Source: Desulfotomaculum sp.
Lineage (GTDB): Bacteria > Bacillota > Desulfotomaculia > Desulfotomaculales > Desulfallaceae
Assembly (NCBI GenBank): GCA_016841675.1
Contig: JAENYQ010000004.1
Span: forward strand, 1-64,000
Length of the DNA: 64,000 nt
Reading direction: 5' to 3'
The notes below the pieces were generated by a model, which worked only from the letters and a program-made list of their open reading frames with translations, made no database searches and was not told the DNA's origin. Each line of letters starts with the position of its first letter. Positions within the stretch are counted from its first letter, which is position 1. Made by a program: the position numbers and the translations under genes. Positions 40,012-45,938 of the stretch are shown here, one piece after another.

Positions 40012-41361
40012 TTATCCGGCCGTAGTGCAAACTTTAAGGTATAGCGCACATTCCAGGCGTTTTTTAGCCAATTCACAGCCCAGCCCATATGGTTCCAATA
40101 AGTCACCATTAAACGCCAGGGCGTTGGCATGACAACCTCCGCTGCAGTGGAACCTGGCCCAACATTTTTGACATGCCTGTTTATTATATATATGTGCCTG
40201 GCTGAACATATTTGTGGTATCTTTTTCCACCCCGTTAAACACAGTTCCTACCTGAAATCCATGTCGGCCCACAAACTGATGGCAGGGGTACATCTCGCCG
40301 GTCGGCGCCACCGCCAGGTACTCCGTGCCTGCGCTGCACCCGGTAAGCCGCTTGGCCAGGCATGGTCCGTCATCCAAATCAACGTTGAAGTGGAAGAATT
40401 CCACCGGCCGGCCCTGACGATGCCGTTCCAACAGATACCGGGTCAATTTATCGTATTCCGCAAATATCACTGGCAAATCGCCTTCACGCAGGGCGTAATC
40501 CATCTCGGCTTCGGCAATTACCGGCTCCACCGACAGGTGGTCGAAACCCGCCTCCGCCAGGTGACGCACATCTTCGGCAAAATCCAAATTGTGGCGGGTA
40601 AAAGTACCCCGAATATAATAATCCTTTTCAAACGGCAGGCGTACGAATTCAGTACAGCGTTCCATTATCCGCCGGTAACTGCCCCCGCCGCCTGGTGTAG
40701 GCCGCATATGGTCATGCACTTGGGGCCTGCCGTCAACCGATAGTACCACTGCCAGATCGTTGTCTATAATAAATCTTTGCATTTTGGCATCGAGCAGCAT
40801 AGCATTAGTGGTCAGGGTAAACTTGATTATCTTGCATGCCTCCCCGGCCCGGGCCCGCCCGTATTCTACCAGGTCTTCCATCACCGGAACGTTCAAAAGG
40901 GGCTCCCCGCCGAAAAAGTCCACTTCCACGTGCCGCCTGCTGCCGGATGCATGCATTAAAAAATCTATGGCAGCCCGGCCCACCTCTTTTGACATCAACC
41001 CCCGGTCCCCGCCGAAATCCCCCTGGCTGGCAAAACAGTACCGGCACCTCAGGTTACAATCATGGGCCAGATGCAGACAAAGAGCCTTTACCGCTCCGTC
41101 GGCATTAGCATTATAAAAACCATGGGGCAGAGGGTCCGGTGCAAAGAGCATACCGTTGGCCTTTAAATCGGCAGCCTCCTGCAGCACTTCTTTTACCGTT
41201 TCAACCCCGTAGACCGGCAGGTATTGGGCGGCCACGTCTTCTTCATGTGCCGTCTCCAGCGCTTTGATGATATAGTAAGCCGGTTCATCAACGGCATGTA
41301 CAGCACCACTGTTGACGTCCATTACTATAAAAATGCCGTCAAAGGCAAAGGTATGAATCAA
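40012..41361 (-). CDS. scfB: SCIFF radical SAM maturase
   Basis: Radical SAM/SPASM enzyme that forms thioether bridges in the SCIFF peptide. The [4Fe-4S]-SAM motif is CNLRCRYCFA (about 102-111); the C-terminal SPASM cysteines include CSAGTEYLAVAPTGEMYPC and CQKCWARFHCSGGC. TTG 41361 gives the family beginning MIHTFAFDG and follows AGAAGGG; a longer frame to 41418 has no support. The product is 449 aa. The scfA precursor lies 135 bp upstream beyond a terminator-like hairpin. Confidence 0.95.
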   Translation of the reverse strand: MIHTFAFDGIFIVMDVNSGAVHAVDEPAYYIIKALETAHEEDVAAQYLPVYGVETVKEVLQEAADLKANGMLFAPDPLPHGFYNANADGAVKALCLHLAHDCNLRCRYCFASQGDFGGDRGLMSKEVGRAAIDFLMHASGSRRHVEVDFFGGEPLLNVPVMEDLVEYGRARAGEACKIIKFTLTTNAMLLDAKMQRFIIDNDLAVVLSVDGRPQVHDHMRPTPGGGGSYRRIMERCTEFVRLPFEKDYYIRGTFTRHNLDFAEDVRHLAEAGFDHLSVEPVIAEAEMDYALREGDLPVIFAEYDKLTRYLLERHRQGRPVEFFHFNVDLDDGPCLAKRLTGCSAGTEYLAVAPTGEMYPCHQFVGRHGFQVGTVFNGVEKDTTNMFSQAHIYNKQACQKCWARFHCSGGCHANALAFNGDLLEPYGLGCELAKKRLECALYLKVCTTAG

Positions 41362-41458
41362 TTCAACAACAACCCTTCTAAAAGAAAATGCGTAATAAAT
41401 TATGCTTGGGGAAATCATAATTGTTCATAGAAATGGCCATCTTTCAGCATGTACTAAG

Positions 41459-41494
41459 CGAAAAAAAGGCCTCATCCCTTTCGGGATCAGGCTT
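41459..41494 (-). terminator. Attenuator-like terminator between scfA and scfB
   Basis: AAGCCTGATCCC gaaa GGGATGAGGCCT followed by TTTTTTT. It directly follows the scfA stop and should make the abundant scfA message end mostly before scfB. Confidence 0.9.
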
Positions 41495-41495
41495 T

Positions 41496-41645
41496 TTAGT
41501 TTTTCTTCTTGTTGCAGGCCTGGTTGCCGACGGTCAGTGAGGTCTTGCACGCTGATTGGCATGAAGTCCGGCACTCGCCGCAACCACCGTCACGCACAGT
41601 GCTCTGCAGCGTCCGCCCGCTGATGGTTTTTATATGTTTGCCCAA
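41496..41645 (-). CDS. scfA: SCIFF ribosomal peptide precursor, five-cysteine variant
   Basis: A 49 aa peptide reading MGKHIKTISGRTLQSTVRDG, then GCGECRTSCQSACKTSLTVG, then NQACNKKKN. The SCIFF leader KHIKT and core CQSACKTSxTVGNQxC are clear. SCIFF normally has six cysteines; here the fifth is Leu (KTSL instead of KTSC). TTG 41645 lies eight bases after AAGGAGG. It is followed by a terminator and scfB. Confidence 0.93.
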   Translation of the reverse strand: MGKHIKTISGRTLQSTVRDGGCGECRTSCQSACKTSLTVGNQACNKKKN

Positions 41646-41714
41646 CCTTGTCGCCTCCTTAACTTAGTGACTGGTTAAATTATATGCCAAACCGAAAATA
41701 TTTAGCAAGCCATT

Positions 41715-42296
41715 TTAAGGAAACCTTTCGCCTGGGTCAGGGTTACTATTGGCTATCCGTAAAACCCCCTCTAAAAAAGCATGAAAACTATTTGATAGAT
41801 TTCTGTCTCGATCAATATAGTCAGCAATTCTTCTAGCACCTTGTAGTTTTTGATAATCTGGGACCAGTTTTTTTAGTTCCTCTGCCGCGTTGGTAACACC
41901 ATCGGGGTTACGGTATTTCTTTTTTCTTTGCAATCTTGCTATAGAAGGTTTATCATAAGCAGCAGCAACTGCGGTTAAATCCCCTAGAAACCATGATTCC
42001 AATTCGTTGCAAACAATGCGTACCACCGAATCTGGCCTGCCGACCCGGGCACAAATACTTGAAAGGTTATCTTTTATTCGGCAACAATCCCCACCATCCT
42101 GGTCCCGCACAATAATAAAGCGTACTCCAGGCTCTTTCCACGCGCGCAATTTACGAGTAATGGATTTTTCCAGGTCTTGTTTGCCTTCATGGGTAACTGT
42201 CATAAAATCTACTCCTTGCGGAAGCAGATCTGGCAATAACTTATCCAGTAATTCCTTCATAGAAGGCTCTTCCAACATAAAAACAATTTTACTCAT
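41715..42296 (-). CDS. DUF4276 protein, Toprim-like partner of an AAA ATPase
   Basis: A 193 aa protein of the DUF4276 family. FMLEEPSMKELL (about 6-17, acidic E) and IIVRDQDGGDCCRIKDNL (about 61-78, DxD-like) fit a Toprim-like metal site. Start ATG overlaps the ATPase stop (ATGA). Two-gene ATPase/Toprim modules such as AbiL, PARIS and OLD act against phage; this pair is similar in layout, but no activity is shown by sequence. Confidence 0.8.
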   Translation of the reverse strand: MSKIVFMLEEPSMKELLDKLLPDLLPQGVDFMTVTHEGKQDLEKSITRKLRAWKEPGVRFIIVRDQDGGDCCRIKDNLSSICARVGRPDSVVRIVCNELESWFLGDLTAVAAAYDKPSIARLQRKKKYRNPDGVTNAAEELKKLVPDYQKLQGARRIADYIDRDRNLSNSFHAFLEGVLRIANSNPDPGERFP

Positions 42297-43474
42297 CGTG
42301 GCCCGGCTCCTTCAAAAAAGCCTTGTTTCCACAATGAACCAGGCAAATCCCCTTCATCAACCAGGCTTTTTACCAATTCATTCTCAGAAGCCCTTTGAAT
42401 GATGCTGAAGCCTTCTTGCTTAGTTAACCAAAACAATTCAGATATATTTACACCGTTAACAAAATCCGGTGAATGAGTAGATATGAAAACCTGACCGCCC
42501 CTTTCACTATAGCTTCTAAATTCCTCTGCCAGTTCATATAAAAGTTCAGGATGCAACTGATTTTCCGGCTCTTCTATACAAAGTAAAGGGTGCGGATTTG
42601 GGTCATGCATTAGTAACAAATAAGCAAACATTTTTATGGTACCGTCTGAAACATAGCGGGCAATAAACGGATCCTTAAACGCCCCATCCTGAAAGCGCAA
42701 CACTATTCTTCCATCTGTAGTCTCGGCGGCCTGAACATCTGTAATGCCGGGCACTCTCTGGGCCATTTTAGCTAATATTTCCTGAAACCGTTCAAAATAG
42801 TGTTCATACATAAACTTTGCCACTAGAGGTAAATTTTCTCCAGTTGGTGATAAATGTTCACTATAGCCAGCATCTTGACTTGACCTGGCGGCTTGAATAT
42901 GAAAATCCATAACATGCCAGCCCTCAATTAAACGGCGAAAAGCAGCAATCTGAGGAAACTTCTGAAACTGCCCCAATCCTTTAATCGCTAATATATCAGG
43001 TGAATCCAATTTCTGCAGTTCACGTATTGGTTCCACATCAGGCTGTCCATATTCCATTTCATTAACAATAGCTGTTCCCGCACCTTCAGCGAAATCCAGG
43101 AAATGCCACGGCTGCCCCTTTTGACCGCGGCGGTATTTAAGAACCTCCCGCTTAACAACAGGTATTCCTCTATTATCCGTACCTATTTTTAAGTCATAAG
43201 TAACTACCGGATCCCCTGGTTTGGGGCGAAATTTAATGGCAAACTCTATTGGTCCCTTTTGACCCCTGGAAACAACTTCTTTATAGCCACCGCGCTTAGT
43301 AATGGCGGCCCTGACGTTATCAATTAGAGCATCATGTAAAAAGCCAAATACATCAAATAAAGTAGATTTTCCTGAACCATTGGCGCCTAAAAAAACTGCC
43401 ATGTTGGGTAAATCTTTAACGTTTACATCACGAAAAATTTTATAATTTTTTATCGACAGGGATTTAATTTGCAT
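42293..43474 (-). CDS. AAA15/21-type ATPase (SMC/ABC-like)
   Basis: A 393 aa ABC/SMC-type ATPase: Walker A GANGSGKST (about 31-39), signature-like YVSDGTIKMFAYLLL (about 285-299) and Walker B LLCIEEPENQLHP (about 308-320), then HSPDFVN. It belongs to the OLD/RecF-like AAA_21 group. It forms an operon with the DUF4276 gene. It probably senses or processes nucleic acid; a defence role is inferred from layout. Confidence 0.85.
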   Translation of the reverse strand: MQIKSLSIKNYKIFRDVNVKDLPNMAVFLGANGSGKSTLFDVFGFLHDALIDNVRAAITKRGGYKEVVSRGQKGPIEFAIKFRPKPGDPVVTYDLKIGTDNRGIPVVKREVLKYRRGQKGQPWHFLDFAEGAGTAIVNEMEYGQPDVEPIRELQKLDSPDILAIKGLGQFQKFPQIAAFRRLIEGWHVMDFHIQAARSSQDAGYSEHLSPTGENLPLVAKFMYEHYFERFQEILAKMAQRVPGITDVQAAETTDGRIVLRFQDGAFKDPFIARYVSDGTIKMFAYLLLMHDPNPHPLLCIEEPENQLHPELLYELAEEFRSYSERGGQVFISTHSPDFVNGVNISELFWLTKQEGFSIIQRASENELVKSLVDEGDLPGSLWKQGFFEGAGPR

Positions 43475-44158: not shown

Positions 44159-44303
44159 TAATTCCTTTTGTCAGGGTACATCCCGGGGGATACCAACTAA
44201 CTAATTTTCATCACAAATGATTAATATTTTTTTAGCAAGTACGGTTATCATGTTTTCAAATGTTGTTTTTTAGTATATAATAGTAACTAAAAGGGTGGTG
44301 AAT

Positions 44304-45464
44304 ATGGAACAAAGCATTATTGGCGCAAACCTCCGCCGAGTGCGCGAATCAAAGGGCTTGAGTCAAGCCCAGTTAGCAGAGCTTGCTGGGCTTTCAAGAG
44401 TTGCATATCGCAATATAGAAATCGGCAGTGCAACCCCCAAAGTATCAACTTTACAAAATATTGCTGATGGCGTCGGAGTAAAACTCCAGGATTTATTAGT
44501 TCCGGTTCGCACATTAAAAAGAGTCAGGTTTCGGGCTTCAAAAAAAATGAACAGCCGAGATAGCATTATTAACGAAGTAGCAAAATGGCTTGATGATTTT
44601 AATGACCTGGAAAAATTACTAAATAATCGGGAAGATTATCGGTTTGAAGAACTTAGCAAAGAACTTTTTACTATTCCTAACGGCGATGCCAAAGCTAAAT
44701 ATGCAGCCGAAAGAGCCAGAGAAGTTTTAAAACTAAAATATAATGAACCCATCCGCGATATTGCCGGTTTGCTGGAATCAGCTGGAATCAAAGTATCTCC
44801 CATAAGTCTCGCATCAGACGGTTTCTTTGGCTTATCTGTTGCCAAGGAAGAAGGTGGCCCTGCTATTATCGTAAATATATGGGAACGAATTTCAGTTGAG
44901 CGATGGATTTTCAGCGCCGCTCATGAGTTGGGGCATTTGCTTCTCCACCTAGATACTTATGACATAGATGAAATTGCAGAAAGTGAAGATCAGGAATCCG
45001 AAGCTAACGTCTTTGCCTCCCATTTTCTGATGCCAGAAAAAGCTTTTAAATCCGAATGGCAAGATGCTTATGGATTGCCCTTTATTGGCAGAGTTTTTAA
45101 AGTGAAGCTCATTTTTCAGGTTAGCTACAAAACTGTACTGTATCGCCTTTCTCAAATTCCCGGAAAAAATTCAGGTAAATGGGTGTGGGGAAAATTTCAA
45201 AGTGATTATAGGCGAAAAACTGGTAAAACATTAAGCATCAAGGACGAACCGGAAGCTTTACATCCAGATAAATTTTTACAAGCACCGGAAGTATTACGTT
45301 CCCAGGAACCACACTCTATTTCTTCCTCACACTTTGTTGAAGACCGCCTATATAGATTGGTTCGCCATGCAATTGAAAAAGATGAAATAACCATGAGCCG
45401 TGGGGCAGAAATACTTAGACTCGATCTTGAAGACATGAGAGACGTAGTCTCTTCGTGGATATAA
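44304..45464 (+). CDS. XRE-type regulator fused to ImmA/IrrE metallopeptidase
   Basis: A 386 aa protein: N-terminal helix-turn-helix (about 10-65: LRRVRESKGLSQAQLAELAG) and an M78 peptidase domain with FSAAHELGHLLLH (HExxH, about 201-213) and EANVFASHFLMP. ATG 44304 behind AAGGGTGG is chosen. It ends three bases before the PIN gene. This two-gene layout is that of a toxin-antitoxin module in which the HTH-peptidase acts as antitoxin (COG2856). Confidence 0.9.
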   Translation: MEQSIIGANLRRVRESKGLSQAQLAELAGLSRVAYRNIEIGSATPKVSTLQNIADGVGVKLQDLLVPVRTLKRVRFRASKKMNSRDSIINEVAKWLDDFNDLEKLLNNREDYRFEELSKELFTIPNGDAKAKYAAERAREVLKLKYNEPIRDIAGLLESAGIKVSPISLASDGFFGLSVAKEEGGPAIIVNIWERISVERWIFSAAHELGHLLLHLDTYDIDEIAESEDQESEANVFASHFLMPEKAFKSEWQDAYGLPFIGRVFKVKLIFQVSYKTVLYRLSQIPGKNSGKWVWGKFQSDYRRKTGKTLSIKDEPEALHPDKFLQAPEVLRSQEPHSISSSHFVEDRLYRLVRHAIEKDEITMSRGAEILRLDLEDMRDVVSSWI

Positions 45465-45467
45465 ACG

Positions 45468-45938
45468 ATGGCCAAAAAAAAGAGGCATTTTCTAATACTG
45501 GATGCCAATATCCTCATCGATTTTTGTCAATGTGACAGGACAATTGTTAAATTAGTTTGTAACTATGTTGGCCAGGTATATTTAACGACGCCAGTTTTAA
45601 ATGAAGTTAAGCAAGTCGATGAGGGAGATTGCCAAGAACTTGGCATTATACTTGTGGAACCAGAATTAGATCAAGTTGTGTTGGCGGCAGAGAAAAAAGG
45701 CCCTTTATCATTCCAAGACAATTTATGTTTAATTCTGGCAAAGGAAAATGGATGGTCCTGCGTAACTAATGACAAACCACTAAGAAAAAGGTGTAGGGAC
45801 GAGGGTGTAACAATAATTTGGGGAGTTGAATTGATATGTATGTTAGTAGAATCCGTCGGGTTGCCTCTTGAACATGCTACCGATATTATAATGAAAATGC
45901 CGGGGATAAATATGCTATTTTTAGTGATATTCCGCTAG
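45468..45938 (+). CDS. PIN-domain ribonuclease-like toxin
   Basis: A 156 aa protein: ILDANILIDF (about 9-18, first acidic), EVKQVDEGDC, SFQDNLCLILAKENG (about 81-95) and VTNDKPLRKRC (about 99-109), the PIN acidic pattern. It probably cleaves RNA. It is coupled with the XRE-ImmA gene. The last 13 residues (from MPGINML) do not fit the family; a -1 shift near 45895 would read NAGDKYAIFSDIPLGSIT, so the end may be frameshifted. Confidence 0.8.
   Translation: MAKKKRHFLILDANILIDFCQCDRTIVKLVCNYVGQVYLTTPVLNEVKQVDEGDCQELGIILVEPELDQVVLAAEKKGPLSFQDNLCLILAKENGWSCVTNDKPLRKRCRDEGVTIIWGVELICMLVESVGLPLEHATDIIMKMPGINMLFLVIFR

Follow-up and report, generated by a model that had tools for sequence, protein, structure and literature searches.

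A 64,000-nucleotide stretch of Desulfotomaculum sp. DNA (the window) was found to carry an scfA–scfB gene pair, which is probably a working ranthipeptide locus whose precursor has lost the fifth of six cysteines on the branch leading to the genus, at a position that would lie outside the thioether bridge. This reading is built on the sequence itself, its conservation, recurrent losses of the same Cys elsewhere and an intact enzyme. In the proposed mechanism, Leu37 would have replaced the fifth Cys in the ancestry of the window's genus, the N-terminal domain of ScfB would bind the KHIKT leader of ScfA, and the enzyme would join Cys33 to a nearby Thr via a radical-formed thioether, with Thr35 (+2) rather than Thr38 as the presumed acceptor. 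The fifth position would lie outside the bridge and may need merely a small or aliphatic side chain.

Translation of scfA gave MGKHIKTISGRTLQSTVRDGGCGECRTSCQSACKTSLTVGNQACNKKKN, with five Cys at 22, 25, 29, 33 and 44. In the core, KTSL replaces the KTSC of the family, and the claim of the earlier note that the peptide has five of six Cys was borne out by the Leu37 codon CTG in the translated frame. The peptide scored 78.4 bits against TIGR03973 (cut-off 50) and 78.6 bits against PF13165 (cut-off 27). The SCIFF name refers to six cysteines in 45 residues, a count that window ScfA, with five, does not reach; the curated SCIFF models do not demand six Cys, and the fifth was missing in 13 of 207 loci found with them. 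Assigned by model rather than by name, window ScfA is a genuine SCIFF precursor.

The CTG codon of Leu37 was also present in two other genomes of the genus, Peptococcaceae BRH_c8a (LADP01000024) and the Bacillota MAG Cu122P5bin5 (WQUS01000102), of which the former shares the TTG start codon of the window gene and the latter has GTG. To turn Cys TGY into Leu CTG, all three bases would have to change, and the codon is common to three genomes; a sequencing error can therefore be dismissed, and with it the TGC at this codon that had been named beforehand as an observation that would speak against the variant. Between the window and Cu122P5bin5, the scfA codons showed 16 synonymous and 4 non-synonymous differences, none of the latter in the core; by this comparison, the gene is under purifying selection. 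Twelve relatives read from the same family, but from outside the window's genus, all have KTSC, so that the change from Cys to Leu37 belongs to the genus. A second, normal scfA, the other observation named beforehand, was not found in the 99.98% complete genome; the only other SCIFF match (16.4 bits) was rejected, being out of frame within a panB-like gene. It is therefore highly improbable that scfA is a decaying or mis-assembled copy: the assembly behind the window is one draft in 162 contigs, which would allow for such a fault, but the identical codon in three genomes and the purifying selection argue against it, as do the promoter, ribosome binding site, hairpin and partner gene, all of which are intact. 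In a further genome of the genus (G012, 98% complete), neither scfA nor scfB was detected.

The scfB gene adjoins scfA directly downstream, and its product scored 580 bits against TIGR03974 (cut-off 425). Its open frame extends to an ATG at 41418; since homology to ScfB starts only near residue 20, the TTG at 41361 is the more likely start. Window ScfB proved homologous to CteB (5WGG; 445 residues, E 1.8e-144) and contained the radical SAM motif CxxxCxxC (Cys121/125/128) as well as eight Cys in the SPASM region (353, 361, 379, 416, 419, 425, 429 and 448). The coordinates of the features are collected in the table below. For the region 41455–41505, a folding energy of −19.1 kcal/mol (z −4.3) was calculated, and hairpins of like kind were found 3′ of scfA in BRH_c8a, Cu122P5bin5 and locus L009; TATAAT was present upstream of scfA in BRH_c8a and L009 as well. 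On the 5′ side of scfA, a DUF4276 protein and an AAA ATPase (window 41715–43474) form a candidate HEC-01 anti-phage pair (PADLOC, 227 and 605 bits), and at 44295–45938 a gene for an HTH/IrrE-type metallopeptidase is followed by one for a weak PIN-like domain protein, in a toxin–antitoxin-like layout.

Table. Features of the scfA–scfB locus in the window
Feature	Position	Strand	Basis
scfA, SCIFF/ranthipeptide precursor, 49 aa, TTG start, five Cys	41496..41645	-	TIGR03973 and PF13165
Leu37 codon CTG, fifth-Cys position (CteA Cys36 by alignment)	41535..41537	-	Sequence; CteA leader alignment
Cys33 (CteA Cys32), reported thioether donor	41547..41549	-	Alignment; donor role from PMC8326336
Thr35 (CteA Thr34), +2 candidate acceptor	41541..41543	-	Constant in peptides read
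Thr38 (CteA Thr37), +5 candidate acceptor	41532..41534	-	Gly in one clade
scfB, radical SAM/SPASM SCIFF maturase	40012..41361	-	TIGR03974; CteB homology; probable TTG start at 41361
Terminator-like hairpin and T tract, between scfA and scfB, just 3′ of scfA	41469..41492	-	Fold of 41455–41505
scfA ribosome binding site AAGGAGG	41654..41660	-	Sequence; kept in BRH_c8a
Sigma-70-like promoter TTGCTA-18-TATAAT, 5′ of scfA	41679..41708	-	Consensus scan, 10/12 matches

A SCIFF peptide was detected in 103 of the 113 genomes from the window's order and, above the cut-off, in 202 of a sample of 250 genomes from the whole phylum. A set of 207 loci chosen by the model or its coordinates, irrespective of variant, was tallied: 193 encode six Cys, 13 lack the fifth alone, and in one (L220) the fourth Cys is Ser; three loci with register artefacts and another whose first Cys is shifted were scored as six-Cys. 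Matches to the pattern CQTACQSAC in L147, L149 and L242 were rejected as a register artefact, the peptides having six Cys. A locus in a MAG labelled Deltaproteobacteria (L066) carries an ScfB that groups with the window's order, which suggests mis-binning or transfer.

A total of 84,980 species genomes were scanned with the pattern CQSAC-KTS-x-T, in which the codon of x was not to start with T, so that the scan was blind to Phe, Tyr, Trp, TTR-Leu and TCN-Ser. Among the 58 stretches obtained, x was Ala in 26, Ile in 18, Leu in 9, Val in 3 and Ser in 2; charged and amide residues, Gly and Pro occurred in none of the 58, although the pattern allowed them. Carriers included Moorella, Caloramator, Sarcina ventriculi, Clostridium tarantellae, Desulfovirgula, Vulcanibacillus, Coprothermobacter and others, many of the variant genomes being metagenome assemblies, and ScfB usually adjoined the variant peptide where the locus extended far enough. 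Many carriers of the fifth-Cys loss (L063, L067, L070, L085, L090, L096 and L098) belong to thermophilic genera. On a FastTree phylogeny of 217 ScfB proteins, the state of the fifth Cys changed at least 14 times, and 9 times on well-supported branches alone, a count that cannot separate loss from gain and whose details are uncertain owing to long branches. By these comparisons, the window peptide belongs to a known family in which this variant recurs in nature, and is not peculiar to this genome. No report of five-Cys SCIFF members was found in the titles, abstracts and passages of the literature consulted.

Regarding the residue that takes the thioether, two reviews (PMC8326336, PMC8172795) give Cys32–Thr37 for two in vitro studies, of Tte1186a and CteA, and a Cγ thioether Cys32–Thr34 for CteA co-expressed with CteB in E. 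coli. The statement in the earlier note, that the CteA thioether joins a Cys to the Thr five residues on, is thus in line with the in vitro reports and at odds with the co-expression result. In the alignment to the CteA leader, Cys32, Thr34 and Thr37 of CteA correspond to Cys33, Thr35 and Thr38 of the window peptide. In a separate scan for second-base changes, the +2 Thr codon was altered in 0 of 399 genomes; replacement by Ala, Pro or TCN-Ser, which falls outside the pattern scan, was covered through the peptides read directly, all of which retain the +2 Thr, three apparent exceptions being register artefacts. Gly took the place of the +5 Thr in 7 of the 399 genomes, which span 6 genera and account for a single change on the ScfB tree; three genomes of a further family have this Gly too. 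The peptides with KTSCG[VI] instead of KTSCT (L266–L272, L277–L279) form one clade, with ScfB intact where read. A constant +2 Thr and a +5 Thr that is Gly in one clade favour Cys33–Thr35, and on this comparison a bridge via Thr35 is somewhat preferred over one via Thr38. The argument is suggestive only, since it draws on a single clade in which the pathway may be drifting: a 99%-complete genome of the further family with +5 Gly (G178, L220/L280) encodes CQSASKTSCSIVNQ, in which both the donor Cys and the +5 Thr are replaced by Ser, next to an intact ScfB (760 bits). This clade may make a different product, the donor position may tolerate change, or the assembly may be in error. A Cys33–Thr38 bridge, with Leu37 inside the ring beside the acceptor in place of a non-reacting Cys, is considered rather unlikely. 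It would agree with the in vitro linkages, and Thr38 is present in the window and in every fifth-Cys variant read, even if the scan pattern required this Thr; the Gly replacements beside intact ScfB, the invariant +2 Thr and the co-expression result (PMC8172795) count against it. That C33 and T38 keep the five-residue spacing, as had been pointed out for the window, is correct and carries little weight, because the +5 Thr is replaced elsewhere and the +2 Thr never.

The fifth Cys appears dispensable: it has disappeared again and again from peptides that retain the other five Cys and both Thr, and the partner enzyme can probably build its bridge without it. The suggestion that the six-Cys pattern may not be needed for that bridge thereby gained support, with the qualification that the variant is not peculiar to the window. 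Outside a clade of two-Cys peptides, no other Cys was lost together with the fifth, so that an obligatory pair with another Cys is unlikely, and the restricted set of replacements (Ala, Ile, Leu, Val and Ser) suggests that the side chain here has to be small or aliphatic. As the fifth Cys was kept in about 93% of the unselected loci, it is nevertheless under selection for something. It might have a job in canonical SCIFFs, in redox chemistry, metal binding or a second bridge, in which case five-Cys lineages would have lost an extra function and kept the first bridge. This alternative, which the Cys at the fifth position in 193 of the 207 loci and the joint absence of several Cys and of ScfB Cys353 in the two-Cys clade would support, is given a minor share of the probability: the five-Cys lineages showed no loss of a partner Cys, and no ScfB residue stood out as co-varying with the loss in 2010 residue tests across independent pairs.

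The two-Cys peptides (L059, L067, L068, L069 and L109; Coprothermobacter and relatives, Dictyoglomota) keep the third and fourth Cys alone, in CQTACKTSAT, with an ScfB-like gene alongside. Two tested peptides scored 25–27 bits (SCIFF cut-off 50) and two tested enzymes 385–393 bits (cut-off 425), for which reason these pairs are described as ScfA/ScfB-like and were not filed as members. Four of the five loci had enzymes complete enough to align, and among 224 aligned ScfB the linker Cys353 was missing only in these four (L067, L068, L069 and L109). A linker Cys of SuiB occupies the site that is left open on the Aux I cluster of CteB (PMC6231123). As a tentative extension, the six-Cys pattern might be unneeded for SCIFF maturation altogether: the essential unit would be CQ[ST]ACKTS with a bridge from Cys4 to the +2 Thr, the fifth Cys would be merely a small hydrophobic residue, and the two-Cys peptides with Cys353-less ScfB would be the minimal working form.

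Among characterised systems, CteA/CteB (thermocellin, Clostridium thermocellum; CteB structure 5WGG/5WHY) pairs the two genes in the same way and has a like leader and type of core, the window leader aligning with crystallised CteA 1–21; CteA is described as six-Cys, whereas window ScfA has Leu at CteA position 36. Tte1186a/Tte1186 (Caldanaerobacter), the SCIFF type first studied in vitro (PMC8326336), likewise has six Cys versus five in the window. The five-Cys SCIFFs of Moorella, Caloramator, Sarcina ventriculi, Desulfovirgula, Vulcanibacillus and others share the single missing Cys, but have Ile or Ala as replacement (Leu in Desulfovirgula) and represent separate changes on the ScfB tree. 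Freyrasin (PapA/PapB) is also a radical non-alpha thioether peptide with a maturase related to window ScfB; it has, however, six Cys–Asp bridges (PMC8326336), and window ScfB stayed under the cut-off of the PapB model NF047865 (262 bits, cut-off 340). SCIFF peptides are widespread, and published work divides between Thr34 and Thr37 as the bridged residue. With their intact maturases alongside, the five-Cys, two-Cys and Thr37-to-Gly peptides offer natural substrates that could decide between the two and show what the six Cys do.
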